From positions 1 to 33,534 of IMG/VR virus record IMGVR_UViG_3300020446_000040: 33,534 bases of DNA; one strand, written 5' to 3'. Shown here in pieces: positions 5,793-29,149 of the stretch. This stretch comes from a virus. The notes beneath the pieces are model-generated. The model was not told the DNA's origin. It worked only from the letters and a program-made list of their open reading frames with translations, and did not search any database. Made by a program: the position numbers and the translations under genes. Position 1 is the stretch's first letter. Every line of letters begins with the position of its first letter.

Positions 5793-7376
5793 ATGGCTAC
5801 AAAAAGAAAATCAATCATCGAAGAGGCTTTGTTAGAAGCAAAGTCTTTAGAGGATGCCTTAAAAGCCAATACGAAAGAAATGCTTGCTTCACATATGAAA
5901 CAAGAAATTGAGAACATCGTTGAGTCGTCTTTAAATGAGGAAGACGAAGAAGTTGAAGAAATCGATGTGGAAGGATCCGATGAAGAAATGGAAGAAATGC
6001 CAGCATTAGATGCTGGAAATGACTCAGAAGAGTCAGAATTAATGGATTTAGATATCGATCTTGACGCTTTAGCGGGAGACGATGATGAAGAAGTTGAATT
6101 AGATGTTGTTGAATTACCCGCAGAATTAGATATGGGTGATGAAGAAGAATTAGATTTAACTGGTGCATCAGACGAAGAAGTAATCGCAGTATTTAAGAAA
6201 ATGAGCGATGAAGACGAAGTTGAAGTTGTTAAAGACGCTGACGGAATCCACTTAACAGATAACGAAACCGGTGCAGAATACTACATCAAAGAAGGTGACG
6301 AACATTATGAAGAATCTTATGACAAAATGGACGAAAAGTCTGATTGTATGAAAGAGGAAGCAGGATGTGGCAAGAAATATGAAGGTCACGATCATATGGA
6401 CGAAGAAGTAATGTACGAAATCGAACTTTCTGAAGAACAACCTTATGGAGGTAATAAAGGAGACGAATCTAAAAGTCGTAGAGATTACATGGAAGAAGGT
6501 AAATATGGCGGCAATAAAGGAGACGAATCTAGAAGCCACAGAGACTATATGGAAGAAGGTGATGACATGTATGAAGGTCATTATGGTGGTAACAAAGGCG
6601 ATGAGTCTAGAAGCCACAGAGACTATATGGAAGAAGGTGATGACATGTATGAAGGAAAATATGGCGGCAATAAAGGCGATGAGTCTAGAAGTCATAGAGA
6701 TTACATGGAAGAAGGTGATGATATGTATGAAGGAAAATATGGCGGCAATAAAGGCGATGAGTCTAGAAGTCATAGAGATTACATGGAAGAAGATGAAGAA
6801 ATAGTAGATTTAGATGTTTCTGAAGGTGATGGCGCAATCGAAGAAGACAAACTTAAAAGACACCAATCAACTGGTTACCAAAGATATAGTGGTGCCAAAG
6901 CTGGGTCGGATCAAGCAAGTCCTTACGGTGGTGTATCAGAATCTAGAAAAAGAAGAACACCTAAAAATGTACAAAAAGTATCGGAATCAAAAATTATGAA
7001 GGAATACAAAGAGTTAAAATCCAAAAACGAAGAGTATAAAGGAGCACTTAAAGTATTCAAGAATAAATTAAACGAAGTTGCTTTATTCAACACAAATTTA
7101 GCATACGTAAATAGATTATTCACTGAACATTCTACAACCAAATCAGAAAAGATGGAAATCTTAAAAAGATTTGATAATGCAGAAACTATTAAGGAATCTA
7201 AATCTATCTACAAATCAGTAAAAAGTGAGTTAGATTCTAAGTCACCAATTACAGAATCTGTAGAGAATAAAGTAAATAAGACTGTTAAGTCTTCTAAATC
7301 GGATTTAAATGAATCTACTGCATATGTAGATCCACAAATAACTGCGATTAAAGATTTGATGAGAAAATTATCATAA
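5793..7376 (+). CDS. Prohead scaffolding core protein (gp22-like) with internal repeats
   Basis: Internal scaffold around which the capsid shell assembles, normally degraded by the prohead protease. The 527-aa protein is extremely acidic: residues ~45-150 are dominated by Glu/Asp. Residues 218 onward hold five tandem copies of a Tyr-Gly-Gly-Asn-Lys-Gly-Asp-Glu-Ser unit (6444-6800). The C-terminal ~130 residues form a charged helical domain with LFNTNLAYVNRLF and MEILKRFDNAETIKES, which resembles the conserved C-terminus of T4-type scaffolds. Position between protease and capsid gene supports the call. The leader is A-rich (ACAAAAATTTACA before the ATG) and has no Shine-Dalgarno. It lies 38 bases before the capsid gene with no terminator between, so the two are probably co-transcribed. 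Confidence 0.85.
   Translation: MATKRKSIIEEALLEAKSLEDALKANTKEMLASHMKQEIENIVESSLNEEDEEVEEIDVEGSDEEMEEMPALDAGNDSEESELMDLDIDLDALAGDDDEEVELDVVELPAELDMGDEEELDLTGASDEEVIAVFKKMSDEDEVEVVKDADGIHLTDNETGAEYYIKEGDEHYEESYDKMDEKSDCMKEEAGCGKKYEGHDHMDEEVMYEIELSEEQPYGGNKGDESKSRRDYMEEGKYGGNKGDESRSHRDYMEEGDDMYEGHYGGNKGDESRSHRDYMEEGDDMYEGKYGGNKGDESRSHRDYMEEGDDMYEGKYGGNKGDESRSHRDYMEEDEEIVDLDVSEGDGAIEEDKLKRHQSTGYQRYSGAKAGSDQASPYGGVSESRKRRTPKNVQKVSESKIMKEYKELKSKNEEYKGALKVFKNKLNEVALFNTNLAYVNRLFTEHSTTKSEKMEILKRFDNAETIKESKSIYKSVKSELDSKSPITESVENKVNKTVKSSKSDLNESTAYVDPQITAIKDLMRKLS
6444..6800 (+). repeat. In-frame tandem repeats within the scaffold gene
   Basis: Five units start at 6444, 6504, 6582, 6660 and 6738. The first is 60 bases, the next three are 78 bases, and the last is cut short. 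All begin with the codons for YGGNKGDES and contain DYMEE; the 78-base copies add GDDMYEG. The 78-base units are nearly identical at DNA level, especially those at 6660 and 6738, indicating recent duplication and a likely site of length variation. Unit lengths are multiples of three, so the frame is kept. Confidence 0.95.
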
Positions 7377-16478: not shown

Positions 16479-17276
16479 TTAAGTGGTTTCTACATCGTAT
16501 GTTATTTCTCTATCTTCAGTGAAAAAATATTCTTTTTTAGCTTTATTTACCCAAAATTTACTTTCAAGTACGTTAACAGTGTTTTTATATTCATCAAATA
16601 ATGATCCAGCACGATTATTAATATGTTTATATCCTAACTTAGGAATCACCATAATTTGGACATCTAAGTAACTTAATCTCAATAAAAATTCATAGGTAAA
16701 AGTTAACTTCATATGTTTCTTTAATCCACCATGTTCTTGAAATATTTCTTTATTTACTACCATCCCATCGAAATTGAAATTCTGTATTTTTTGTAAAGTT
16801 TCATTATCTAATAATCCCATATTTTCGGAAACATTTTGTACCCATACATTTTCATTTGTAAAAGATATAAACTCACCTTTTTCATTACATTCAAATACTA
16901 TTGGTAAAAATACTCCAACTTCAGGATATGATTCTCTATATTTTACAACATTATCAAACCATATTGGTGATAATACATCATCATACTCTAGAAAAGAAAA
17001 ATAGTTACTAGTAGATTGTTCTACACCATAATTTATTTGTGATTGAAAATCATAATTACCTGTTTCATTTTCAATAACTTTTGTAATTTTTTTAATTTTA
17101 CCATAATCAAAAGAATCTAAAAATTTAATTAACTTTTTATCGTTTGAACGTACAATTAAAACTTCATCTGGTAAAATCTTTTGTTCAATTATACTATTGA
17201 TTGCTTTTTCAAAATATTCACTAACACTATCATCTAATTTATGTATAGGAATAATTAAACTAATATCTGTTTTCAT
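16479..17276 (-). CDS. GT2-type glycosyltransferase
   Basis: 265 aa, GT-A fold. It begins with the family-2 pattern ISLIIPIHKLDDSVSEYFEK and PDEVLIVRSND at 36-46. The metal/nucleotide-sugar site is probably EYDDVLSP at 97-104 (a DxD variant), followed by the acceptor-side region with VNKEIFQEHGGL near 175. Retains the usual domain length for single-domain GT2 enzymes, with no membrane helix, so it probably acts in the cytoplasm on an activated sugar. It directly abuts the sigma-factor gene. Donor and acceptor cannot be told from sequence. Confidence 0.82.
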   Translation of the reverse strand: MKTDISLIIPIHKLDDSVSEYFEKAINSIIEQKILPDEVLIVRSNDKKLIKFLDSFDYGKIKKITKVIENETGNYDFQSQINYGVEQSTSNYFSFLEYDDVLSPIWFDNVVKYRESYPEVGVFLPIVFECNEKGEFISFTNENVWVQNVSENMGLLDNETLQKIQNFNFDGMVVNKEIFQEHGGLKKHMKLTFTYEFLLRLSYLDVQIMVIPKLGYKHINNRAGSLFDEYKNTVNVLESKFWVNKAKKEYFFTEDREITYDVETT

Positions 17277-17286
17277 AACTATTTTT

Positions 17287-18417
17287 TTATTTTGTTGTAA
17301 TTTCTTCTTTTTTATTATTTTTAGTCTCTTTAGCGTCTACCACCCCTAATTCAGTTAATCTTCTACTAAAAATTCTATTATATACTTCTTTAATTTGTTG
17401 TTTACTTTCTTTTTCTGTATATTTGTTTTCGTACTCTTTCATTGTATTTAATACATTTTCAGGTAATGCATCTTCTAAATATAAACCAACCATAGTTGCT
17501 ATCATATCAGGAATTGCATTTAAGTTAGTTACCCACACACCATTATCAATTAATTTAAGTGCACCATTTTCATCACTTTCCCCCATCCATTCTGGTATCA
17601 TTCTCGGTATTTTACCAATAACTGGTGTTTCACTTTTCATTGATTCTAAGGGAAAAGTACCAAAACTAGATAATTCATCTACCCAAACACTTAAAAATGA
17701 TTCGGATAAACTTTTGGCAAACTCTTTTCTAGGTAATCCTGACATATCTCTAAAAGTAATGAAACGATAGTGAGGGTATTTTTGAAAAAATACTTTTACA
17801 ATTTTTAAAATTTCTCTTTTGTCTCTAGCCGATATAGACACTGTAGGTATTTTTGGTTTTTCACTATTTTTAAAGTAATCTGGTATACCAATAGGTATAA
17901 CTTCTGTCACTAAATTTCTAAAGATAGATTCTACATATTTCTTTAAATTTTCATTTGTCGTAATAACCTCATTAATACCAAACGCATTCCAATTTTCACC
18001 AATCTCTAACATTTCAAAAATATATTCATATGATTGTAAGAATACTATTCTTTTACAAGGAAAATTAACAGTTTGTTTCATTATACTTGCAAATGCTTCC
18101 GGAATTATCACAAAATCTTGTGGTCCTACTTGTAAAGTTTGAGATTCTATAGAAACGTGAGGTAGTTCAGCATATTCTTCACCTAACCATTCTGCGATTC
18201 CCATACCTTCTTCATTTCCTCTTAATCTATAATCGTTTTTATCATGTAAAATTTGAGCATTAAACCCAAACTCCCTTAATGTTTTAACATGTTCATAAAT
18301 TGTTGCCACACCTGCGGTGGGATTCCCTTTAGTATCTAAAGTAAAAAAATAGATACCAAAATCTTTGTTTACTATTTTTTGAATAGTGTCTTTTACTGTG
18401 CTTTGATTGTCACTCAT
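17287..18417 (-). CDS. GT-B-type glycosyltransferase (GT1/GT4-like)
   Basis: 376 aa. Two Rossmann-like halves: an N-terminal half with GVATIYEHVKTLREFGFNAQ (residues ~36-55), typical of the family's first helix, and a C-terminal half with SSFGTFPLESMKSETPVIG near 247-265, the E-x7-E-like nucleotide-sugar region of GT4 enzymes. Basic charged tail of ~25 residues (KETKNNKKEE). No membrane segment. The leader before the ATG is an unusual run of A's (minus strand, 18418-18430). Lies in the same leftward transcript as the GT2 gene, 10 bases upstream of it. Substrate unknown. Confidence 0.78.
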   Translation of the reverse strand: MSDNQSTVKDTIQKIVNKDFGIYFFTLDTKGNPTAGVATIYEHVKTLREFGFNAQILHDKNDYRLRGNEEGMGIAEWLGEEYAELPHVSIESQTLQVGPQDFVIIPEAFASIMKQTVNFPCKRIVFLQSYEYIFEMLEIGENWNAFGINEVITTNENLKKYVESIFRNLVTEVIPIGIPDYFKNSEKPKIPTVSISARDKREILKIVKVFFQKYPHYRFITFRDMSGLPRKEFAKSLSESFLSVWVDELSSFGTFPLESMKSETPVIGKIPRMIPEWMGESDENGALKLIDNGVWVTNLNAIPDMIATMVGLYLEDALPENVLNTMKEYENKYTEKESKQQIKEVYNRIFSRRLTELGVVDAKETKNNKKEEITTK

Positions 18418-18809: not shown

Positions 18810-19433
18810 TTATATATCTTCATATTCAATTGTTTCAGTACTTAAAATTTTTTCTAACATACTTTTATCTTCTAATAGTTCTTTTAAATCTACTACAGTA
18901 TAATCAGAATTATTATTTTTATTATATGTGTTGATAACCTTTACTGATACTTTATTATTTGGTTTAGTATCTAAAGTTTCAGGAGATGCAGTAATTAATA
19001 CATCTACATGTTCCCACTTATTTACATAATCTCTTACAAACTTAATATTATTAACTTTAGAAGATAGTTTAGATAAGAAAAATAAAGTTGCTGGTTTACT
19101 ATTGTTTAATTCTTTACTAATAATAATGGGGGTATGCCCCATATCTTCTATCATATTATGTAATTGGTTTAAATGTTCAACGGAATTTAATTTTACTTCA
19201 CCCGCATGACCAAATATTTCTAATGAAGCGTCTACATACATAAATTTATTTAATTGTTGAGTACCCCCACTAAATTCGAAATATTTTAATAAATCTAAAT
19301 CTTTAATATCTCTTTCAATTATTTTATTTTCACCTGTTTCTTCATCAATAATTGGGTAATATTTATCATAAACTAATTCAAATTTTGTTATAAAATCTCT
19401 TATAACACCATCTATCGTAATTCCTATTTTCAT
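18810..19433 (-). CDS. HAD-superfamily-like protein (5'-nucleotidase type), nucleophile position altered
   Basis: 207 aa. The N-terminus KIGITIDGVIRDF has the form of HAD motif I of nucleotidase-type enzymes (hhhhDxDGVhxDF). At the position of the nucleophilic Asp there is Thr5, while the second Asp (Asp7) is kept. A motif-II-like strand TPIIISKELNNSKPATLFFL follows near 105-124, and a candidate later motif is in FVRDYVNKWEHVDVLITASP (~132-151). Phage HAD proteins of this kind usually act on nucleotides or serve as DNA end phosphatases. With the nucleophile replaced, this one is probably inactive or works differently. It overlaps the PhoH gene by 4 bases (ATGA), so the two are coupled. Confidence 0.72.
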   Translation of the reverse strand: MKIGITIDGVIRDFITKFELVYDKYYPIIDEETGENKIIERDIKDLDLLKYFEFSGGTQQLNKFMYVDASLEIFGHAGEVKLNSVEHLNQLHNMIEDMGHTPIIISKELNNSKPATLFFLSKLSSKVNNIKFVRDYVNKWEHVDVLITASPETLDTKPNNKVSVKVINTYNKNNNSDYTVVDLKELLEDKSMLEKILSTETIEYEDI

Positions 19434-20179
19434 TGTTCTAATTTTTCAAATACCTCTTCTATTTTTTTTATTATTGGGTTTCTAACTACATCATTAGGAT
19501 TTCTAAGTTGTACACAACCGAATCCTTCAACATCTTTGAATTTATCCAATACTATTTCTAAAGAAGAATCTTTTTTATTTCTTATATCTTTTTGTCTTAC
19601 GTCCCCCATAATAACCATTTTAGAATTATCACCTATTCTAGTCATTAATGTTCTTATGTTATCCATTGATATGTTTTGTGCTTCATCAATTAGTATTATA
19701 GAGTTATCTATACTTCTTCCTCTCGCAAATGCGATGGGAACAATTTCAATAACACCTAATTCAATTAGTTTTTCCATCCTACTTCTACCAATTAATTTTC
19801 TAATATTATCAGTGAAAGATTCCATAATTGGTGCCATTTTATCTTTTAATTCACCCGGTAAATGTCCTATTTCTTCACCTTTTAACGCAGTAATAGATTT
19901 AACTAAAACAATTCTTTTGTATTTAGGTCTAGATTTTATTAATTTAAGTGCTTCTGCACATGATAAAAATGTTTTTCCCGATCCCGGTAATCCACTACAA
20001 ATAGTAATTTCGTTTTGTTTGATTGAATTAACTAATTTTTTTTGATTTTCTGTTTTACACTTAACGTGTACAGAGATGGTTTGGAATACTTTTTCTTCTT
20101 CTACATTATTCCTATTTAGGAATAATTCCATTTCTTCTATCTCTTCTTGTGAAAGTTGTTTGTTCTTTCTTCTACCCAT
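19430..20179 (-). CDS. phoH: PhoH-like ATPase
   Basis: 249 aa P-loop NTPase. Walker A GLPGSGKT at 63-70, Walker B ILIDEAQN at 161-168, and the family's GDVRQKD near 192-198. The helix between (VKSITALKGEEIGHLPGELK) is the conserved PhoH core. PhoH-type proteins are RNA/DNA-associated ATPases of unclear role and are common in phages, including marine and Bacteroidota phages. The N-terminal ~35 residues are charged and specific to this protein. Coupled to the HAD-like gene by a 4-base overlap. Identification is firm, function in infection is not. Confidence 0.92.
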   Translation of the reverse strand: MGRRKNKQLSQEEIEEMELFLNRNNVEEEKVFQTISVHVKCKTENQKKLVNSIKQNEITICSGLPGSGKTFLSCAEALKLIKSRPKYKRIVLVKSITALKGEEIGHLPGELKDKMAPIMESFTDNIRKLIGRSRMEKLIELGVIEIVPIAFARGRSIDNSIILIDEAQNISMDNIRTLMTRIGDNSKMVIMGDVRQKDIRNKKDSSLEIVLDKFKDVEGFGCVQLRNPNDVVRNPIIKKIEEVFEKLEQ

Positions 20180-20294: not shown

Positions 20295-21113
20295 TTAAAT
20301 ATTTTTAAAAAAGTTTTCCATATACTTCAACTCTACAAGAGGATAGCTAGTATTAATTTTTTTAAAAACACTATCATTTTTTACTTCACAATAAAATTTA
20401 TAATGATTTTTATAATTATCTTTAACTATCTGATTTTTAACTGCTGGTGGTAAATTACTTTTGTACCCCCTCCAAATACCTAAATGTAATCCGTGATGTG
20501 GTCCACTCCCTCCTATATCTATTTTAAATTTATTTTGAGGTAATTTACCTATACCTTTGTTAATTATATCGTATAATAAATGTTCATTTCTGTAACGTTG
20601 GGATAAAGATAGTTTTCTATTTTTTAGTTTTGTTGAGTATTGTTTTATAATATTAGACATTTTTTCATAATATTCTTTAACTTTAAAAAAGTGTAAACCG
20701 GTAAATCTTTTTTGTTTAGGTCTTATAGAATTACTATACGGTAAGTTATTATTTTTTAAATGTGTTATATGGGTTTCTCCGAGTGTAGGGGTTTCTTTAC
20801 ATATTAATATATCTACATCACCAATATACACATAATCAAAATCACTAAATACATCTTCAGGTATTACCCATCTAATAGATTTCAATTTTTGGTTATCTTT
20901 GGGGTATCCCGCAAAAAATCCTTCTTCAATAGAAACTAAATCGTTGTTAATAACATTAATTAATTCTTTAGTCTTTTCAGATAAACTTCCTAAAAATAAA
21001 ACTTTTATAAAATAATTAGGGTAAGATTTAGTTATAAAATAAATAAAATAAGGAATATATTTTTCATAATTTTTATTAACAACTACCGATATACAAATTT
21101 TATTATTCATCAC
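20295..21113 (-). CDS. GT8-like glycosyltransferase
   Basis: 272 aa, GT-A type. Starts with CISVVVNKNYEKYIPYFIYF. The metal-binding DxD is in FDYVYIGDVDILI with Asp99-Val-Asp101, the classical 'YLDxDxL' site of GT8-type retaining transferases. A C-terminal GSGPHHGLHLGIWRG (about 197-211) corresponds to the His/Gly-rich acceptor and second metal site region. No signal peptide. It follows the 302-aa gene after 22 bases in the leftward transcript. Sugar and acceptor unknown. Confidence 0.75.
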   Translation of the reverse strand: MMNNKICISVVVNKNYEKYIPYFIYFITKSYPNYFIKVLFLGSLSEKTKELINVINNDLVSIEEGFFAGYPKDNQKLKSIRWVIPEDVFSDFDYVYIGDVDILICKETPTLGETHITHLKNNNLPYSNSIRPKQKRFTGLHFFKVKEYYEKMSNIIKQYSTKLKNRKLSLSQRYRNEHLLYDIINKGIGKLPQNKFKIDIGGSGPHHGLHLGIWRGYKSNLPPAVKNQIVKDNYKNHYKFYCEVKNDSVFKKINTSYPLVELKYMENFFKNI

Positions 21114-21135
21114 ACTACAAATTTTTTATTTAAGT

Positions 21136-22044
21136 TTAATTTAATATATTATTTTTAACAAATTCTAAAGAAGTATGTTTTTTTGTCCACTCATACTGTT
21201 TTTTTGAAATCGATTTTATTTTATCAGGATTTTCAATAAAATCTTCAATGGTTTTACGTAATTCACTAGGATTAATACTTATACTAGGAGGGTTTTCAAA
21301 AAAAGGTTCAGTGATTAATTGTGGTGAGCTAGTAATAAGTACATTTTTAACTAACATAGCCTCTAAACCTGATTTACCAATACCACCCTTAAAACCTAAT
21401 AATTTTTTAGACAAAGAAGTAGATACCATTTGATCTATAAAAATATGTGTTTTTTCTTTAATTTTTATACAATCACTCCATTTTTTATCTCTAATCACTA
21501 TTAGTTTTTGATCGTGTAAAGTTCTTTTAATAAATTTAGTACCTTTTAAGTTACTAGAGTATTTTAAACCTGGAGAATGAGAAAAAGTAAGTTCCTCATA
21601 TTTTTGTATTTCTTTATCTAATGGTATTCCTATGTGTTGAAAATATGGTTTATATTTAATAGATTTATCCAAAAAAGGTATTTTATCAGGCATTATTAAT
21701 ACTTTTACATTAGGGTTATTTTTTAAAATATTATTAACTCTTTTATTTTTCTTTAAAAATCTACCATCACTTATTACTATTATTAATTCTTTATTCTTAA
21801 ATTTTTTTAATTCTATATTATCTAAAGATATTGCACCAAAAATAATTATTCTTTTAGAATTTTTTAATAAGTTAACACATAATTTAGTATTCTTTTCATA
21901 AAAAAATTTATTTTTAATCATAGAATCAAAATCTCTTCTTACCGACCTAACTAATATTGTACAACTATTTTCTATGTGGTTAGCAATAAAACTTATACCC
22001 CCATAGGAAGAGTCGTTAGAAAATAAAACTGTTTCTACCGACAT
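21136..22044 (-). CDS. Glycosyltransferase-like protein (GT-B C-terminal domain)
   Basis: 302 aa, very Lys/Ile/Asn-rich. The C-terminal half holds LLGFKGGIGKSGLEAMLVKN followed by VLITSSPQLI, which resembles the nucleotide-sugar loop (G..GxxxLEAM) of GT1/GT4 enzymes, then the family-typical final helix with ENPDKIKSISKKQYEW. The N-terminal half has short Rossmann-type strands (RIIIFGAIS; ELIIVISDG) but is shorter than usual, so the donor-binding half is clearer than the acceptor half. It is 3 bases from the LpxD-like gene. A glycosyltransferase role is likely, specificity unknown. Confidence 0.65.
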   Translation of the reverse strand: MSVETVLFSNDSSYGGISFIANHIENSCTILVRSVRRDFDSMIKNKFFYEKNTKLCVNLLKNSKRIIIFGAISLDNIELKKFKNKELIIVISDGRFLKKNKRVNNILKNNPNVKVLIMPDKIPFLDKSIKYKPYFQHIGIPLDKEIQKYEELTFSHSPGLKYSSNLKGTKFIKRTLHDQKLIVIRDKKWSDCIKIKEKTHIFIDQMVSTSLSKKLLGFKGGIGKSGLEAMLVKNVLITSSPQLITEPFFENPPSISINPSELRKTIEDFIENPDKIKSISKKQYEWTKKHTSLEFVKNNILN

Positions 22045-22047
22045 AAT

Positions 22048-22932
22048 TTATTTTTTAATTATTTTTGCTGGTGTTCCAACATAAGTATTATTAGAATCTG
22101 CATTACTATTTAGAAAAGAATTAGCCCCTAAAGTAACATTAGAACCTACATTCATACCATTTTTTAAAGATGCGTTTATACCACAATAAAAATTCTCACC
22201 TATTGTATTAGAACCAGCAACTACACAATGTGAAGTAAATAGTGAATTTTCACCTATTATACAATTATGTCCAATGTTAGTATAAGAACCTAATTTACAA
22301 CCTTTTTTAATAATAGTATTTTCTAATGCACCCTTTTTAATATCACTATGTGAACCAATTTCTACATTATCTTCTATTATAAGCCCCCCTATCTGAGGAA
22401 ATCTAATCCACTCATCATTTGTGTTTTTTTCAAATCCCATACCGTTAGTACCTAAACAGGAATTTTCTCTTATTATACAATTTTCACCAATAGTAACATT
22501 ACTATGGATAACTACGTTAGGATATAGTATCGTACCTTCACCTATAATAACATTTTTAGAAATATGAACGTTATCCATTATTGTAATATTAGGTGAATTA
22601 TTTTTATGATAGTCAACATAGTTTGTGGGATTAATTTTTTCCTCAACTAATTTTAAAATTAAAATATAAGTTAACCTAGAGGTAGTTTCCTCACAAACTA
22701 AATGAATAATATTTGGGTTTAATTTTTTAAGTTTTTTTAGTGTGTTATAATCACGCTCACTAATAATTAAAATTCCGTTAACAAAATTATTATAAAAACT
22801 AATATTTTTAACCCAATATAAACAATCTTCAGATGTATCTTCTTTTTTACCAATTCTAAGATTTTCAAAAACACATTCATCTTTAAATTTTACATTACCT
22901 AGTTTTAATATGTCCTTAACTTTTACTTTCAT
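22048..22932 (-). CDS. LpxD-like sugar N-acyltransferase, left-handed beta-helix
   Basis: LpxD adds an acyl chain to the free 2-amino group of an acylated UDP-glucosamine in lipid A synthesis. The 294-aa product (start MKVKVKDIL chosen because it overlaps the upstream gene by only 17 bases; a longer frame to 23010 lies inside that gene) has an N-terminal ~110-residue domain with ILIISERDY, like LpxD's uridine-binding domain, then hexapeptide repeats (IIGEG, TIGEN, EIGSH, IIGEN). Diagnostic LpxD features are NGMGF and WIRFPQIGG, the segment EIGSHSDIKKGAL, and NIGHN with His222 at the catalytic-His position. The C-terminus is YVGTPAKIIKK. It differs from cellular enzymes in low-complexity Asn richness. 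Acyl donor and sugar are unknown. Confidence 0.85.
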   Translation of the reverse strand: MKVKVKDILKLGNVKFKDECVFENLRIGKKEDTSEDCLYWVKNISFYNNFVNGILIISERDYNTLKKLKKLNPNIIHLVCEETTSRLTYILILKLVEEKINPTNYVDYHKNNSPNITIMDNVHISKNVIIGEGTILYPNVVIHSNVTIGENCIIRENSCLGTNGMGFEKNTNDEWIRFPQIGGLIIEDNVEIGSHSDIKKGALENTIIKKGCKLGSYTNIGHNCIIGENSLFTSHCVVAGSNTIGENFYCGINASLKNGMNVGSNVTLGANSFLNSNADSNNTYVGTPAKIIKK

Positions 22933-23428
22933 AAAGTTCTTTTTCTTTATGATACTTCTTTGCCGGATTACCAAAGTAAATCCCACTATCCATAATGTCT
23001 TTATTGACAAAAGACAATGAACCTATTGTAGTATTATTTACTATAGAAATACCATGTTGTAAAACACTATTAGTGCCTATGAAACATTTAGCACCAATTT
23101 TAGCACCACCTATTTGTATTTTTCCTGAATCTAAATTATTCGTCATAACTCTAGGACAAACATAAGTATCATCACCAATTTCTACTCCTCTAGCGATTAT
23201 TGAATCATATCTTAGTGTAACTCTATCACCAATCTTACAATTTCCTGAAGTAGAAACTCTAGAATCAATATAACAGTCTTCACCAATGATGGTGTTTTTT
23301 CTAAGTTCTACATAATTTTTAATAATTGTGTTATCACCAATGATAACATCTTCTTCTATCACACAAAAACTTCCTATTTGAACGTTTTCTCCGATAATTG
23401 CTTTTTCTGATATATTATTCATTTTCAT
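22916..23428 (-). CDS. Hexapeptide-repeat acyltransferase (left-handed beta-helix)
   Basis: 170 aa made almost wholly of hexapeptide repeats ([IV]G-x-x-x-x), for example IIGEN, QIGSF, IIGDN, IIGED, KIGDR, EIGDD, KIGAK and TIGSL, ending in the classic IYFGNPAKKYHK. This is the fold of LpxA and of sugar O- and N-acetyltransferases that use acetyl-CoA or acyl carrier protein. There is no LpxD-type N-terminal domain, so it is more like a simple sugar acetyltransferase than LpxA proper. It overlaps the LpxD-like gene by 17 bases and is directly downstream of the deacetylase gene, so it may act on the same sugar. Confidence 0.85.
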   Translation of the reverse strand: MKMNNISEKAIIGENVQIGSFCVIEEDVIIGDNTIIKNYVELRKNTIIGEDCYIDSRVSTSGNCKIGDRVTLRYDSIIARGVEIGDDTYVCPRVMTNNLDSGKIQIGGAKIGAKCFIGTNSVLQHGISIVNNTTIGSLSFVNKDIMDSGIYFGNPAKKYHKEKELYESKS

Positions 23429-23444
23429 AATTTTTTTGTTTTTG

Positions 23445-24089
23445 TTATAGTATCCATCTTATTACTTCAAAACATTCAGCGTATAAAGTATTTATCTGTA
23501 CCCCCCTAGTTCTAGCTAATGACTTTACGAATTCTTCGTTAGCATAGGGTCTATGAGATTGAGATAAGTATTGTTTTATCGCTTCAATTTTTTTATTAAT
23601 GTGTTTTTCCTCTAATTTCATAAAAGAAGTAGTATTAAATGTTAAATTATTCCAAGGTAATTCATACGACAGTAAACTACTAAATTTAAACGCTCTAAAC
23701 CCTTCTTGTGCAATAGTATAATGATCTTGATGTACATCGGTTAATGAAGGTATAAAAACTATATCGGGTTGTATACTCTTTTTGAGTGTTAAAATATCAT
23801 CTAATATTTCTTGTCGTTGGTAATTAAATGTTCTTACGTTATAATCTAAAAGGATTAAATTATCTTTTGGGATACCTAAAACCTTACTAGCTTTTTTAAT
23901 TTCAGTAATTAAAATATCTTCAGGAAATTCTTTTTTAACTGATTGTTTACATGCAGAAAACGCTGCACAATAAACAATATTGCCGTCTTCTATTAACTTA
24001 TTTACTGTTCCACCACAACCAAACTCTAAATCATCAGTATGTGGGGAAAGAACTAAAACTTTTTTATTTTTAATATTCATCGTATACAT
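23445..24089 (-). CDS. PIG-L/LmbE-type N-deacetylase
   Basis: 214 aa. Zinc-dependent deacetylases of this family remove the N-acetyl group from GlcNAc-containing compounds. Motif 1 is VLVLSPHTDDLEFGCGGT with His17, Asp19 and Asp20 (canonical PHPDD; here PHTDD), and the third metal ligand is in DVHQDH at 117-122 (canonical HPDH). The active-site set is complete despite the Pro to Thr and Pro to Gln changes. No signal peptide, so cytoplasmic. The start MYTMN at 24089 overlaps the tri-modular glycosyltransferase by 20 bases; an internal ATG at 24080 is an alternative. Its products could be the free-amine substrates for the two acyltransferases just downstream. Confidence 0.85.
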   Translation of the reverse strand: MYTMNIKNKKVLVLSPHTDDLEFGCGGTVNKLIEDGNIVYCAAFSACKQSVKKEFPEDILITEIKKASKVLGIPKDNLILLDYNVRTFNYQRQEILDDILTLKKSIQPDIVFIPSLTDVHQDHYTIAQEGFRAFKFSSLLSYELPWNNLTFNTTSFMKLEEKHINKKIEAIKQYLSQSHRPYANEEFVKSLARTRGVQINTLYAECFEVIRWIL

Positions 24090-26505
24090 CTAACCAATCG
24101 TTATTAACATCTAAAAATTCAATAATATCATCTGCGACATTTTCACTATTTTCATTTCTTTTATCATATTCATTATTTATATGATTAATAATATCTTCTA
24201 CTGTTTTATAATTCAAAGAATTAGGTGTATTACCATTATGTACACAATGTCTTCCTGTTAACCCCATTTCTAAAACTGTATTAGGTAAACCATCATGTTT
24301 AGTTAACCTTAAACCAATAAAACAACTTTCATAAACTTTTTCTAACTCTTCTTCACTAAACGATTTCGCATTAGCTTCTATGATATTGTAATCAGTTTTT
24401 TCTTTAATAATATCTACTAAATCTCCACCGTATTTAATTCTATCTTCACCACTATAAAAGTATATGTTTTCACCTTTTTTCTCTTTATAATTTTTAATTG
24501 GTGTTGTAGGTGTTATAGGTAATAATATATGTGGTATATTTTTTTTAGTTAAGGTTTCCGAGATGAATTTAGATTTCGCAATATGTCTTATTTTACCTGC
24601 TTGATTAATTAAATCTTTATTTAAAAATTGTGCATCCGAACCACACCAAACAACCGTCTTATGTCCTTTATGGTTTATTAGTGCCATATAATCTTGCATA
24701 GTATATATTCCATTGAATATACAAGGTTTGTTAATATCTGTGTATTCATTTAAACCGTATTTTTTTAATAACTTATTTTTAAAAAAACTTAAACCTGGCG
24801 CTACTCTCATTTGTGTAATAGTAGTAGGGGTATTAATCTTTTCATCAACTTGATTTATTACTCTTTTATATAAATCTATATATTGTTCTGTAATATAATC
24901 TGTATTAAATAAATTCATATCTTTTGGAAATATATCATCTTTTATTTCCTCTATATCACCTGCGGGATCCACTAAATATCCAATCCCTTTTTTATTGTGT
25001 TTAAATCCTTCTATTAAAGTTCGTCCTAAATATGAACCACATACTTTTTCACATTTCTCATATAACTCACTTAAATCTGACATTTCTTCAAAATATGTTA
25101 CGTGTTCGTTTTCTTCACTTATTTTTTTAGCATAACCAAAATCATTATCGTTACCAACTAAAACTAAATTTTGCCCCTTTGATTTGGTTTTTTCCGTAAT
25201 ATCATACACCATCTCTTTTCTAAGATAATTCATTGTACCCGGTAATAAAACGAAATTTTCAATGTTAATACTTTCTTTAACGTTCTTATTATTATTTTTT
25301 TTATCTTCAGTTATATTATATATCATTTCAATATCTGATTCTTTAATTTCTTTAAAATTTTTACACATATGTTCCTTAACTGGATCACTTATTGCAATAT
25401 ATTTTTTAATTTTTTCATCAAATAAAGGATATTCTACGGGTAAAGTTCTAGAACGTACAATGTTAACAAATTTGTTTTGTGGAAAAAGATTTAACAAAGT
25501 CTTACCTATTGGTTGATGATTTATCTGAATAATATCAAATTTCTCATCTTTTATTTTATAAAGTTTATTTTTTTCAGAAACTATTATTTTACCATTCATA
25601 TTTAGTACCCATTTTCCATCACCTTTTTTATAACCAGGAGGAGTATCTAAATTATGTAATTTAATCCCTATTTTTTTTGCCTTTTTTTCTAAAATCCCCC
25701 CTATATTTGAATAGACATGTACCTCACACCCTTTTTCTTTTAGTGATTTTGATAATTCAAAGGTTGAGATTTCAGATCCGGTTAATCCATTATAATTCAT
25801 ACACCCCAATAAAACTTTTAATTTTCTATTCTCAAAATTCTCATCTACATGCATGGGTAAATTTTGTTCATTATTCTTAACAAAAAGTTTTCTGTTTTCT
25901 TCCCACTCTACATTAGTCTGCCCTATAGACATATGATTAATTCTAACTTTGGTAATTACACCAACCTTACATCCTTTAATTTTATTTTCTACACAGAAAG
26001 TTACATCATAAAAATGAAAACCTTTCACATCTTCATTAAACGTAGTTTTTATTTTGTCTTTTTTAAATGAAAACCATAATCCATCTACTAAAACTACCTC
26101 TTCTACGTTGTCACCTAAATCATCACTGTATACACTTAACCAACTTTTATTATTATGGGTGTGTTTAACTTTACCATACATTTTTTGTTGATTGTCCCAC
26201 CATCTTCCACTTTTACTTAATTCTTTAGTACCTGCAACACCAATTATACTATATTGAGGATTTCTATCATATATTTTTAATAATTTCTTACCCCATTGTT
26301 TAGTTTCTATCATTATATCATCATGACATATAACAATAGTATCATATTTTGCTTCTTTAATACCTCTATTATAACATTTAGTTAAAGACTCACCATTATT
26401 AATTATTTCAATTACTTCGATATGTTTATGAAGTCCAGATGATTTAATAATGTGTTCTTTATGTGAGGGCTTAGTTTCTCTAGTACAGTATATAACACTA
26501 ATCAT
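24070..26505 (-). CDS. Tri-modular glycosyltransferase (GT2 plus two GT-B-like modules)
   Basis: 811 aa. Residues ~1-200 are a GT2-type domain: ISVIYCTRETKPSHKEHI, a substrate loop with NNGESLTKCYNRGI, and a metal site in VICHDDIMIE (Asp62-Asp63 region). Residues ~225-560 are GT-B-like: VLLGCMNYNGLTGSEISTFE begins a first Rossmann half with the family's N-terminal glycine/helix pattern, and the second half has FVLLPGTMNYLRKEMVYDI and LYEKCEKVCGSYLGRTLIEG. Residues ~600-811 form a third module ending in GLRLTKHDGLPNTVLEMGLT, again a GT4-type C-terminal motif. No membrane helices. Fusions of this kind can build a short glycan in one protein. The 52-aa gene upstream overlaps its start by 8 bases. 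Confidence 0.8.
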   Translation of the reverse strand: MISVIYCTRETKPSHKEHIIKSSGLHKHIEVIEIINNGESLTKCYNRGIKEAKYDTIVICHDDIMIETKQWGKKLLKIYDRNPQYSIIGVAGTKELSKSGRWWDNQQKMYGKVKHTHNNKSWLSVYSDDLGDNVEEVVLVDGLWFSFKKDKIKTTFNEDVKGFHFYDVTFCVENKIKGCKVGVITKVRINHMSIGQTNVEWEENRKLFVKNNEQNLPMHVDENFENRKLKVLLGCMNYNGLTGSEISTFELSKSLKEKGCEVHVYSNIGGILEKKAKKIGIKLHNLDTPPGYKKGDGKWVLNMNGKIIVSEKNKLYKIKDEKFDIIQINHQPIGKTLLNLFPQNKFVNIVRSRTLPVEYPLFDEKIKKYIAISDPVKEHMCKNFKEIKESDIEMIYNITEDKKNNNKNVKESINIENFVLLPGTMNYLRKEMVYDITEKTKSKGQNLVLVGNDNDFGYAKKISEENEHVTYFEEMSDLSELYEKCEKVCGSYLGRTLIEGFKHNKKGIGYLVDPAGDIEEIKDDIFPKDMNLFNTDYITEQYIDLYKRVINQVDEKINTPTTITQMRVAPGLSFFKNKLLKKYGLNEYTDINKPCIFNGIYTMQDYMALINHKGHKTVVWCGSDAQFLNKDLINQAGKIRHIAKSKFISETLTKKNIPHILLPITPTTPIKNYKEKKGENIYFYSGEDRIKYGGDLVDIIKEKTDYNIIEANAKSFSEEELEKVYESCFIGLRLTKHDGLPNTVLEMGLTGRHCVHNGNTPNSLNYKTVEDIINHINNEYDKRNENSENVADDIIEFLDVNNDWLDVYDEY

Positions 26506-26656
26506 TTTTTAATTGTTTTAACCGATCTTCTAATTCAAGCATTTTATCCTCCACCCATTTTATAAGCCATCCATTACTATACTCGCTCATCACTAATTCT
26601 ACCTCTAATTTTTGAAGGTATTTTTCGATTTTTTTAATCTCTTCTTCTTTCCCCAT
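26498..26656 (-). CDS. Small coiled-coil protein, 52 aa
   Basis: Minus-strand frame from ATG at 26656 to TAG at 26498. The product begins MGKEEEIKKIEKYLQKLEVE and continues through LVMSEYSNGWLIKWVEDKML to a charged end (LEDRLKQLKND). It is almost wholly helical and charged. Support: it fills the only sizeable gap between dUTPase (stop 26662, 5 bases upstream) and the tri-modular glycosyltransferase, whose start it overlaps by 8 bases, as expected for a coupled gene. Function unknown. Confidence 0.6.
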   Translation of the reverse strand: MGKEEEIKKIEKYLQKLEVELVMSEYSNGWLIKWVEDKMLELEDRLKQLKND

Positions 26657-26661
26657 ACTTT

Positions 26662-27282
26662 TTAATTTTTACCTGTTGATCCAAACCCACTATTACCTCT
26701 ACTAGTAGATGATAGATTTTTATCTTCACTATTTACTAATTGAGACACATTTTGATTTACTACGTTCATAATAACGCCTTGTGCAATTCTATCACCATCT
26801 TCAATGGTATATTTGTCATTACTTAAATTTATTACTATAATACCAACATCCCCTCTATATCCTTCATCTACTGTTCCTGGTGTATTTAATACTGTAATAC
26901 CATGTTTTAATGTCATACCACTTCTAGGTCTAACTTGAAGTTCAGTATTAGGAGATAATTCAAAACTTAATCCAGTAGGTATTAATTTTCTCTCTAATGG
27001 TTTTAGTGTTATTGATTCTTTTAATGAAGCCCTAATATCGAAACCACTATCACCTACATGTGCATATGTAGGATCAGGATTATTACTTTTATTAACAAAC
27101 TTAGTAATAGTTTTTAATTGTCCATTTTCATGTAAGTTTTTATAATGTTCAACTACGTTAGTAATGTTATTGACACCATCATCGATGTTAGTTCCATTAC
27201 CATATTCGTTAACCATAGTTGTTATTTCATCTAAAATTTTATTTAAATCCTCAATACTATTTTCATTATATTCTTCACCCAT
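26662..27282 (-). CDS. dut: dUTPase (trimeric type) with N-terminal extension
   Basis: Hydrolyses dUTP to dUMP and pyrophosphate, keeping uracil out of phage DNA and feeding dTMP synthesis. All five motifs are present: AHVGDSGFDIRA (74-85), RPRSG (118-122), the motif-3 region NTPGTVDEGYRGD (133-145), RIAQG (165-169), and the C-terminal arm SRGNSGFGSTG (194-204). A motif-3 difference is VDEGYRG where most have IDxxYRG, leaving the catalytic Asp. The ~55 N-terminal residues are acidic, helical and absent from minimal dUTPases. The start overlaps the HD-like gene stop by one base, so the two are coupled. Confidence 0.95.
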   Translation of the reverse strand: MGEEYNENSIEDLNKILDEITTMVNEYGNGTNIDDGVNNITNVVEHYKNLHENGQLKTITKFVNKSNNPDPTYAHVGDSGFDIRASLKESITLKPLERKLIPTGLSFELSPNTELQVRPRSGMTLKHGITVLNTPGTVDEGYRGDVGIIVINLSNDKYTIEDGDRIAQGVIMNVVNQNVSQLVNSEDKNLSSTSRGNSGFGSTGKN

Positions 27283-27857
27283 TACTTATTGTTTTTTTCT
27301 TCTATTATCGCTAATTCATTAGCTTGTTTAAGTATTGTAGACAAAGTACTACCATACCATTTTGATTGTTTGTCATCATCAGGTTTATCATAATTTACTA
27401 TTGCCTGATATTCTTCCTCACTTAATGTAACACCATATTTCATAGCGTAATAAACTGATCTTTCACCTATTTTCATTGAAGTAATGTCTTCATTAAACTC
27501 ATACATTTTTCCTTGATTAGTTCTATGCCATTCAGATTCGCACCATTTATAAAGAAAAGTTTTACCTATTTGGTGTAAAAAACACACCTTAACTATGGAT
27601 TGTGCATCTACGGATAAACTATCAGGTAATAATTTATTTATACCTATAGCATATTTGGTGGTTTTAAGAACGTGATCAATTAACCCACCAGGAAAAGCAT
27701 TATGTAAAGATGTCATAGTCGATGCAGGTGCAGTTAATAAATCTTCACCTAAATAATCTAATAATTCTTTATTTAATATACCATACAACTTATTCTTTTC
27801 TAAGAAAGTTTGTTTATTTTTTAATATTTTATCTTTTAATTCTACTGTTTTTGACAT
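27282..27857 (-). CDS. HD-domain-like protein with His-Gln in place of His-Asp
   Basis: 191 aa. The pattern is LHNAFPGGLIDHVLKTTKYA (51-70) then CFLHQIGKTFLYKW (92-105), which matches the first His and the HDxGK block of HD-type phosphohydrolases (H...HD). The HD dyad reads His95-Gln96, so one metal-ligand Asp is missing. The surrounding residues (GK after it, DHVL before it) are kept, so this is a degenerate or changed active site rather than an unrelated fold. HD enzymes act on nucleotides or 3' RNA ends; being coupled to dUTPase, a nucleotide-related role is plausible but catalysis is doubtful. Confidence 0.7.
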   Translation of the reverse strand: MSKTVELKDKILKNKQTFLEKNKLYGILNKELLDYLGEDLLTAPASTMTSLHNAFPGGLIDHVLKTTKYAIGINKLLPDSLSVDAQSIVKVCFLHQIGKTFLYKWCESEWHRTNQGKMYEFNEDITSMKIGERSVYYAMKYGVTLSEEEYQAIVNYDKPDDDKQSKWYGSTLSTILKQANELAIIEEKNNK

Positions 27858-27892
27858 AATTTTAAATTTTCTTTAAAAATAATTAATTTATT

Positions 27893-29149
27893 TTAAAACA
27901 TCAAATTTTTTGCAGGTTCTTTTTTATTTATTAATGATTTGTAAAGTAATAATCGTTTTTCACAAACAGATTTCATATCATATTTACCATTTACTTTTTT
28001 ATATAGATTCTCACCTAATTTTTCGATTTCTTTAGGATTTTCAATTAAATATTTAATATGTTTAAACCAAAACTTATGATTTTTATTTTCAGGTATTAAT
28101 ATACCATTACATTTCTCAGTATTATAATTACCTCCTCTTTCATATGCATTTTCAATGTCTATTTGATAAGGTCCAAAATCTTGTCCTATTAAAGCTTTCT
28201 TATGAAATCCAGCTTCTATTACTTTTAACTGAGATTTAACTCTATTAAAGTCACTTTCTTTAAGTGGTGCTAAAGAAACATCAAATAGATTATAATTAGA
28301 TGCGTAACTAGTAATTGGTTTAGTCCATATTCTTCTATAGGGTTCATTTTTTACGTTTTCATATTCTTTCTTTTCAAATTTAAGTAAAAAATCTTTATAT
28401 TCTGGACTAACAATTTTATAATTATCAGTAAATATTTTTTCGTATTTATACCATACACTTTCTTTTGGTTTAATAGGTCTTTGTTTTTGTTTACCAGTTT
28501 CTCTATCAATTACAGTCATAGTTCCTCTTAAATCATATCCACATAATACAAATTGTACTTTATCTATTAAACCTGCAGATTTGATACTACTTACTACACC
28601 AGATAAAATTTCTAAATCTTTTAAGTGAGAAGATCCACCTAACCAACCTATACGAACTCTATCACTTTTTTCTGTATTACTTTTATATTGTTTTTCTTCT
28701 GGATTAATTGCGTTAGGTAAAACAAATACATTTTGATTAAATTTTGTTATTTCTTTCGCAAAAATAGGTGTAGTTGTAGTTATGTTACGAGCAATTTTTA
28801 AATTATCTGCAATCTTTTTATTTAATTTTTGTTGTTTAATAATTGCCCAAGCTGGGTGATCAGGACCCGGTGCCCAATGATCATCAATATCCATAATAGT
28901 GGTTATACCTAACTCATCACATCTCTTAAGAACAGACTCTATTTTTTCATATGGACCTAATGTTCTATGGTAATGAATTAAATCATATTGTTTTAAGAAA
29001 TCATCACTCTCCAAATCTGGCTCATAATCTATATCTACATAAAAGTCGTTAGGATAATATTCTTGTAATTTAATGTGGGGTATTGTAGAACGGTAATAAG
29101 ATACACCTGTTCTATCACTAGGTACTACTAAAATTTTTAATTTACTCAT
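27893..29149 (-). CDS. GT-B-type glycosyltransferase (GT4-like)
   Basis: 418 aa. N-terminal half: LKILVVPSDRTGVSYYRSTI (4-23), YDLIHYHRTLGP, and the strand TTIMDIDDHW (83-92). The second half begins at RVRIGWLGGSSHLKDLEIL (about 165-183), the classic start of the GT4 nucleotide-sugar domain, then a long region with PITSYASNYNLFDVSLAPLK and the end helix NPKEIEKLGENLYKKV. Length is normal for the family. Its start codon lies in a 15-bp AT-rich inverted repeat (29150-29188). First glycan gene of the leftward block. Confidence 0.85.
   Translation of the reverse strand: MSKLKILVVPSDRTGVSYYRSTIPHIKLQEYYPNDFYVDIDYEPDLESDDFLKQYDLIHYHRTLGPYEKIESVLKRCDELGITTIMDIDDHWAPGPDHPAWAIIKQQKLNKKIADNLKIARNITTTTPIFAKEITKFNQNVFVLPNAINPEEKQYKSNTEKSDRVRIGWLGGSSHLKDLEILSGVVSSIKSAGLIDKVQFVLCGYDLRGTMTVIDRETGKQKQRPIKPKESVWYKYEKIFTDNYKIVSPEYKDFLLKFEKKEYENVKNEPYRRIWTKPITSYASNYNLFDVSLAPLKESDFNRVKSQLKVIEAGFHKKALIGQDFGPYQIDIENAYERGGNYNTEKCNGILIPENKNHKFWFKHIKYLIENPKEIEKLGENLYKKVNGKYDMKSVCEKRLLLYKSLINKKEPAKNLMF

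Follow-up and report, generated by a model that had tools for sequence, protein, structure and literature searches.

A putative exchangeable glycan-biosynthesis island in T4-like phages, with a deacetylase–acyltransferase gene pair that recurs in viral contigs

We analyzed a 33,534-nucleotide stretch of viral DNA (IMG/VR record IMGVR_UViG_3300020446_000040, positions 1 to 33,534; hereafter the window), in which a PIG-L/LmbE-family de-N-acetylase and an LpxD-like acyltransferase lie in a leftward block of glycosyltransferase genes. Comparison with related contigs showed that the block occupies a hypervariable glycan island, of which it is one allele among those exchanged within a large clade of T4-like phages; the virion is the most likely target of the custom amino sugar that the block probably makes. 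We give this reading, together with the mechanism proposed below, a probability of roughly 0.5. The deacetylase and its hexapeptide acyltransferase partner are a recurring viral gene pair and not a fluke.

At 99.9%–100% identity, the window corresponds to a segment of a 198,361-base IMG/VR contig (G001). We regard it as T4-like because terminase, portal, protease, and T4-type major capsid protein genes neighbor the block. The capsid protein has relatives on 600+ stretches; the nearest cultivated phage by this protein is Flavobacterium phage immuto (37%), and a host in the Bacteroidota is therefore likely, as judged from sequence. The genes of the block and its boundaries are listed below by window position.

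19430..20179 (minus strand): PhoH-like ATPase (phrog_170), conserved right island boundary in most relatives
20295..21113 (minus strand): probable GT-A-type glycosyltransferase with a DVD motif, 272 amino acids, called from sequence features only
21136..22044 (minus strand): probable GT-B-type glycosyltransferase, 302 amino acids, called likewise
22048..22932 (minus strand): putative LpxD-like sugar N-acyltransferase, 294 amino acids, N-domain plus beta-helix (TIGR01853, 165.8 bits, below cut-off)
22916..23428 (minus strand): short hexapeptide (left-handed beta-helix) acyltransferase, 170 amino acids (PF00132, 97.5 bits)
23445..24089 (minus strand): PIG-L/LmbE-family de-N-acetylase, 214 amino acids (PF02585, 65.3 bits against a cut-off of 28.2)
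24070..26505 (minus strand): multidomain glycosyltransferase, 811 amino acids, with a GT2-like module (PF13712), a GT4-like module (PF13439), and a third, GT-B-like region
26662..27282 (minus strand): dUTPase (PF00692), conserved left boundary of the island

The evidence for exchange comes from relatives. In each we compared the genes that adjoin PhoH, as far as dUTPase if the contig extended to it; ten islands were complete, with a mean of 8.8 open reading frames (ORFs) each. An island ORF recurred in another island in 15% of pairings (118/792), and flanking genes recurred in nearly all. Contig G003 illustrates the pattern: its capsid is ∼90% identical and its slot-flanking proteins are 90%–95% identical to those of the window. 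Identity falls to 64% at dUTPase and to 42% at the first glycosyltransferase; the genes that follow bear no relation to those of the window, and beyond them identity recovers to 90%, the signature of cassette exchange. Homologs of the large glycosyltransferase (24070–26505) are the first island gene in the relatives examined.

The exchanged genes are sugar genes. The G003 island carries GDP-mannose dehydratase and GDP-fucose synthase; others encode GDP-fucose synthesis (G004), aminotransferase/WbqC/PglD-like sets (G028 and G040), or two hexapeptide genes (G013). Pfam families among 65 variable-segment proteins include GT2, epimerase/dehydratase, hexapeptide, DegT aminotransferase, GT11, and methyltransferase. 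Conserved flanks around sugar genes that are exchanged among relatives are what defines a hypervariable glycan cluster, and this is the arrangement found here. The closest match to the window's own allele is on a 38,649-base contig (G002) with ∼80% DNA identity. Protein identities there are 92% for PIG-L, 89% for the short hexapeptide protein, 82% for the LpxD-like protein, and 78% for 21136–22044, so the cassette genes are not a chance reading of the sequence. The slot of 20295–21113 in this sister phage holds a sulfotransferase (PF03567) and a methyltransferase. Among 50 relatives, PIG-L is present in G001 and G002 only.

We then looked at PIG-L across viruses more widely. Profile searching of IMG/VR contigs yielded 209 viral relatives of PIG-L, and we counted neighbors at the 80 top-scoring loci, 65 of them non-redundant. 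Hexapeptide genes occupied 20 of 130 positions at ±1 of PIG-L, versus 15/427 at ±3–6 (odds ratio 5.0, p = 8e-6); as a control at the same loci, neighbors of gmd/fcl, WbqC, and methyltransferase genes were hexapeptide genes in 4/88 cases. Trios of PIG-L, a short hexapeptide gene, and a longer LpxD-like gene occur in four stretches (L264, L276, L206, and L222), of which L276 also has terminase and portal genes. L190 has an LpxD-like gene and a PIG-L gene with a four-base overlap. The LpxD-like proteins of L190 and L206 weakly resemble the LpxD N-domain of Pfam, with scores under cut-off. The preliminary description of this DNA had named, as grounds for refuting it, that deacetylase and acyltransferases are never found together in related phages; since the pair and the trios recur, that test does not refute it. 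No description of a phage LpxD/PIG-L pathway turned up in the literature searched. In L261, an HDVD motif hinted that the neighbor of the LpxD-like gene might be a CE4-like deacetylase; we do not claim this, as the protein had no Pfam match and its L206 counterpart had no solved relative.

Within the window, all ORFs lie where the preliminary description had placed them, with five leftward genes at 20295–24089 and glycosyltransferases at 24070–26505 and 27893–29149. The run is not made up of glycosyltransferases alone: a dUTPase and an HD-domain-like protein, left out of that description, lie between the last two; of the three modules ascribed to the large enzyme, Pfam backs the first two (PF13712 at 1.8e-31 for the first) and not the third. 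The assignment of the deacetylase to the PIG-L/LmbE family was borne out by PF02585. Both hexapeptide proteins likewise exceed their Pfam cut-offs. The deacetylase carries the metal motifs H17-T-D19-D20 and H120-Q-D-H123, which, the first as H17-x-D19-D20, are invariant across seven divergent phage PIG-L proteins. It thus resembles the BshB1/LmbE N-acetylglucosamine (GlcNAc) deacetylases in fold family and in HxDD and HxDH motifs, and differs in not reaching the BshB1 equivalog cut-off (TIGR04001, 62 bits versus 182.5). The short hexapeptide gene overlaps the LpxD-like gene by 17 bases, and LpxD and the sugar N-acetyltransferase QdtC are among its product's nearest solved relatives.

The LpxD-like ORF has an ATG start, and a longer TTG start at 23010 is likewise open. 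An AlphaFold2 model built with 21 viral sequences had a predicted local distance difference score (pLDDT) of 90.3 and a predicted template modeling score (pTM) of 0.83. In a Foldseek search of the PDB, its 25 best matches were all LpxD, ahead of LpxA, over ∼320 columns; whole-chain TM scores were ∼0.4–0.5, so the two domains are placed differently from those of LpxD. The PQIGG, KKGAL, and NIGHN features reported earlier are present (the closest relative has KRAAL for KKGAL). The histidine in NIGHN, H222, aligns with the catalytic histidine (E. coli H239 equivalent) and is invariant in 21/21 viral sequences. W40-xx-N43-xx-F46 occupies the position of F-xx-N-xx-Y in bacterial LpxDs, which we take to be the uracil-binding, uridine-pocket site by reference to the Chlamydia LpxD structure. 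Domain order, fold, catalytic histidine, and this aromatic-xx-N-xx-aromatic motif are thus common to the phage protein and bacterial LpxD.

The two differ in other respects. The phage protein misses the LpxD equivalog cut-off of 242.5 bits and has a shorter beta-helix. Only five residues follow its GTPA motif, versus 30–41 in seven of eight bacterial full-length LpxDs and 19 in the other; the C-terminal helical extension with which LpxD contacts the acyl carrier protein (ACP) is absent. Similar short-tailed proteins occur in haloarchaeal plasmid surface-glycan clusters, in one case with a polysaccharide deacetylase gene close by, and archaea have no lipid A. We found no ACP-domain gene in the phage. 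The structural comparison suggested in the preliminary description therefore bore out the LpxD fold, the catalytic histidine, and a motif at the uridine-pocket position, and not an ACP-contact tail; the cut-off, the missing tail, the archaeal relatives, and the lack of an ACP gene likewise tell against the lipid A role with an acyl-ACP donor that it had raised. Given the missed cut-off and absent tail, the protein is probably a sugar N-acyltransferase that binds a uridine diphosphate (UDP)-amino sugar and uses a short acyl-coenzyme A (acyl-CoA), and not a lipid A enzyme.

Other glycosyltransferases and conserved genes lie outside the variable segment.

16479..17276 (minus strand): core GT2 glycosyltransferase (PF00535), conserved in relatives
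17287..18417 (minus strand): conserved GT-B-like-looking protein beside tail and late genes, 40%–93% conserved in relatives
27282..27857 (minus strand): HD-domain-like protein, conserved flank (phrog_28876; 95% identity in G003)
27893..29149 (minus strand): core glycosyltransferase (phrog_7162, 8e-43), 49%–90% conserved in relatives

The protein at 17287–18417 has no match in Pfam or in isolated phages, yet is found in most relatives.

From this gene content we infer a substrate, an acyl donor, an order of steps, and an acceptor. Core glycosyltransferases in and beside the island would build a glycan on a cytoplasmic acceptor, likeliest a late-made virion protein, and the variable island enzymes would supply its distinctive sugar. 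In the window's allele, PIG-L may strip the N-acetyl group from a GlcNAc-type sugar, either UDP-bound or already in the glycan. The LpxD-like enzyme would then acylate the exposed amine with another short acyl group, taken from acyl-CoA and not acyl-ACP, and the short hexapeptide enzyme could contribute one more acetyl group. Completing the structure would fall to the glycosyltransferases of the cassette or, in the sister phage, to the sulfotransferase and methyltransferase. Deacetylation followed by N-acylation, as put forward in the preliminary description, is reasonable because the pair recurs in viral contigs and the LpxD architecture is kept; a fatty acyl-ACP donor is not supported.

The choice of acceptor turns on what the islands lack. 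A hydrophobic segment is present in 1/97 island ORFs versus 25/195 genome ORFs. The ten complete islands encode no predicted membrane protein and neither a flippase, a polymerase, nor an initiating phosphoglycosyltransferase, and no export-type family is among the 25 commonest Pfam families of the 65 island proteins. Searches of G001, a contig that may be incomplete, turned up no gene of the TET (Tet_JBP), C5-methylase, or thymidylate-synthase/dCMP-hydroxymethylase families; the search for Tet was run without a positive control. Soluble island proteins, no export machinery, and no DNA-hydroxymethylation genes together favor a protein acceptor in the cytoplasm, for which the virion is the simplest candidate. 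Mycobacteriophages are reported to have glycosylated virions (Freeman 2023, cited in PMC12619734).

Several observations weigh against the proposal of an acyl-swapping island that decorates virions. Profile searches gave no significant family match for 20295–21113 and 21136–22044, which are probable glycosyltransferases by their DVD motif and GT-B-like C terminus. A hexapeptide gene adjoins PIG-L in 18 of the 65 non-redundant viral loci, which is common and not obligatory, and islands without PIG-L can also hold hexapeptide genes. Finally, a host might supply the membrane steps, which makes a soluble-only island compatible with a host-surface target.

The last point leads to the main rival, that the island remodels host surface polysaccharide or lipopolysaccharide (LPS) against superinfection, its soluble enzymes feeding the host's membrane export machinery. 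Such remodeling has been proposed for the sugar clusters of cyanophages, in which related phages likewise differ (PMC7824862), and LpxD-like genes similar to ours sit in archaeal surface-glycan clusters. Against this stand the ten complete islands without export machinery or predicted membrane proteins and the position of the core glycosyltransferases next to tail and late genes; on balance, we regard a host-surface role as possible and rather unlikely.

A second alternative keeps the glycan and gives up the acyl swap: PIG-L and the hexapeptide transferases would work on different sugars of one glycan. This would explain hexapeptide genes in islands without PIG-L, as well as the majority of viral PIG-L genes that have no adjacent hexapeptide gene. 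The strong clustering at ±1 and the overlapping genes tell against this, and we consider separate action improbable.

A third alternative arises from an LpxA homolog outside the window (G001:152433-153194; L014:12433-13194), which is followed by a GT2-like gene. It exceeds the PRK05289 cut-off (232.4 versus 226), falls just under that of TIGR01852 (228.6 versus 231.05), and keeps a catalytic-region histidine pair (H112, H115), an HQ motif, and the C-terminal domain (PF13720, 41.6 versus 24.5 bits). The gene sits in a ∼10-kb insertion between genes that are adjacent in phage contig G038. Because this insertion lies within a gene order common to G038, the region is phage DNA and an assembly chimera is ruled out. 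No second LpxA was found in the viral collection by motif scan and protein search, no convincing phage LpxA in the phage collection, and none in the other 49 contigs of the relatives, which include fragments. A phage-encoded LpxA is not described in the literature searched. LpxD and LpxA matches in the phage collection were rejected as phage precedents, being mostly unverified faecal scaffolds, bacterial contigs, and predicted prophage regions carrying host genes.

In such a partial lipid A pathway, LpxA would O-acylate UDP-GlcNAc, PIG-L would replace LpxC, and the LpxD-like protein would N-acylate the product. The score and retained features of LpxA, and the aromatic-xx-N-xx-aromatic motif of the LpxD-like protein, are in keeping with it. 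On the other side, LpxA lies ∼130 kb off beside a different glycosyltransferase and is missing from the other related contigs, and the LpxD-like protein lacks its C-terminal tail in a phage with no ACP gene found. We therefore strongly doubt that LpxA acts together with the cassette. A complete three-enzyme route is very improbable, and so is the bolder reading in which it yields di-acylated UDP-glucosamine outside host control, altering host lipid A or placing a lipid-like sugar on virions. Elsewhere in the phage genome, several sequences resemble, by eye, a response regulator (G001:155727-156425), a TROVE/Ro60-like protein (156517-157968), DnaJ (159988-161016), and an RpoD-like sigma factor (139804-140610).

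Least probable of all is hypermodification of phage DNA bases by the glycosyltransferases and amino-sugar enzymes, also raised in the preliminary description: DNA glycosylation by phage glycosyltransferase clusters has been reported (Pyle 2024, cited in PMC12619734), and the enabling genes were not found in G001, with the limits on that search given above.

Phage sugar clusters are already known. Those of the cyanophage P-SSM2 type (capsule/LPS) are likewise polymorphic clusters of glycosyltransferase, epimerase, and sugar-modifying genes in large T4-like phages (PMC7824862); the present phage differs in its fixed dUTPase–PhoH slot, its deacetylase and LpxD-like module, the virion as favored target, and a capsid whose closest isolate relatives are Flavobacterium phages. 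Flavobacterium phage immuto (MW353176) has a sugar cluster with an aminotransferase, a PglD-like acetyltransferase, an epimerase, and glycosyltransferases, but no PIG-L or LpxD-like gene annotated within the stretch inspected. In cultivated Stenotrophomonas phages DLP3/DLP5, PIG-L stands beside amino-sugar enzymes in a PIG-L-WcaG-WecE-methyltransferase cluster; these are unrelated siphoviruses, and the available part of the report lists no hexapeptide or LpxD-like partner (PMC7326821). The present cluster is a variant of this known kind, more organized than the preliminary description had seen, and its recurring enzyme pair was not found described in the literature searched. If our reading is correct, an abundant uncultivated phage clade would handle surface sugars as bacteria handle O-antigen, exchanging alleles in a fixed slot. 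Variation among virions in antigens or receptors would then have an explanation, testable enzyme sets would be in hand, and unrelated phages would share the deacetylase and its LpxD-like partner as a portable module for acyl swapping.

A scan for the late promoter TATAAATA gave no excess over chance, nor did a sigma-70 scan, and a defense-system library search returned no match. Several minor features of the islands and window were noted. In L134 (G003), PhoH is absent from its usual place at the island side despite ∼90% identical flanks. Proteins resembling inosine monophosphate dehydrogenase (IMPDH) or GMP reductase lie just past dUTPase in several relatives (L139:5819-6847, L144:4833-5894, and L151:617-1390), PF00478 matched one island member, and these proteins perhaps supply GTP for GDP-sugars. 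In L140:765-2634 (G030) and L151:617-3107 (G025), dUTPase and an IMPDH/GMP-reductase-like gene are apparently split by intein-like insertions, with LIHNCG and IVHNCS junctions in the downstream halves. Finally, positions 6444–6796 of the window, inside the ORF at 5793–7376, consist of 60/78-base tandem repeats (78-base unit, four copies, 90% matches); when the window is compared with G001, the copies also align in shifted register, and their number may vary.

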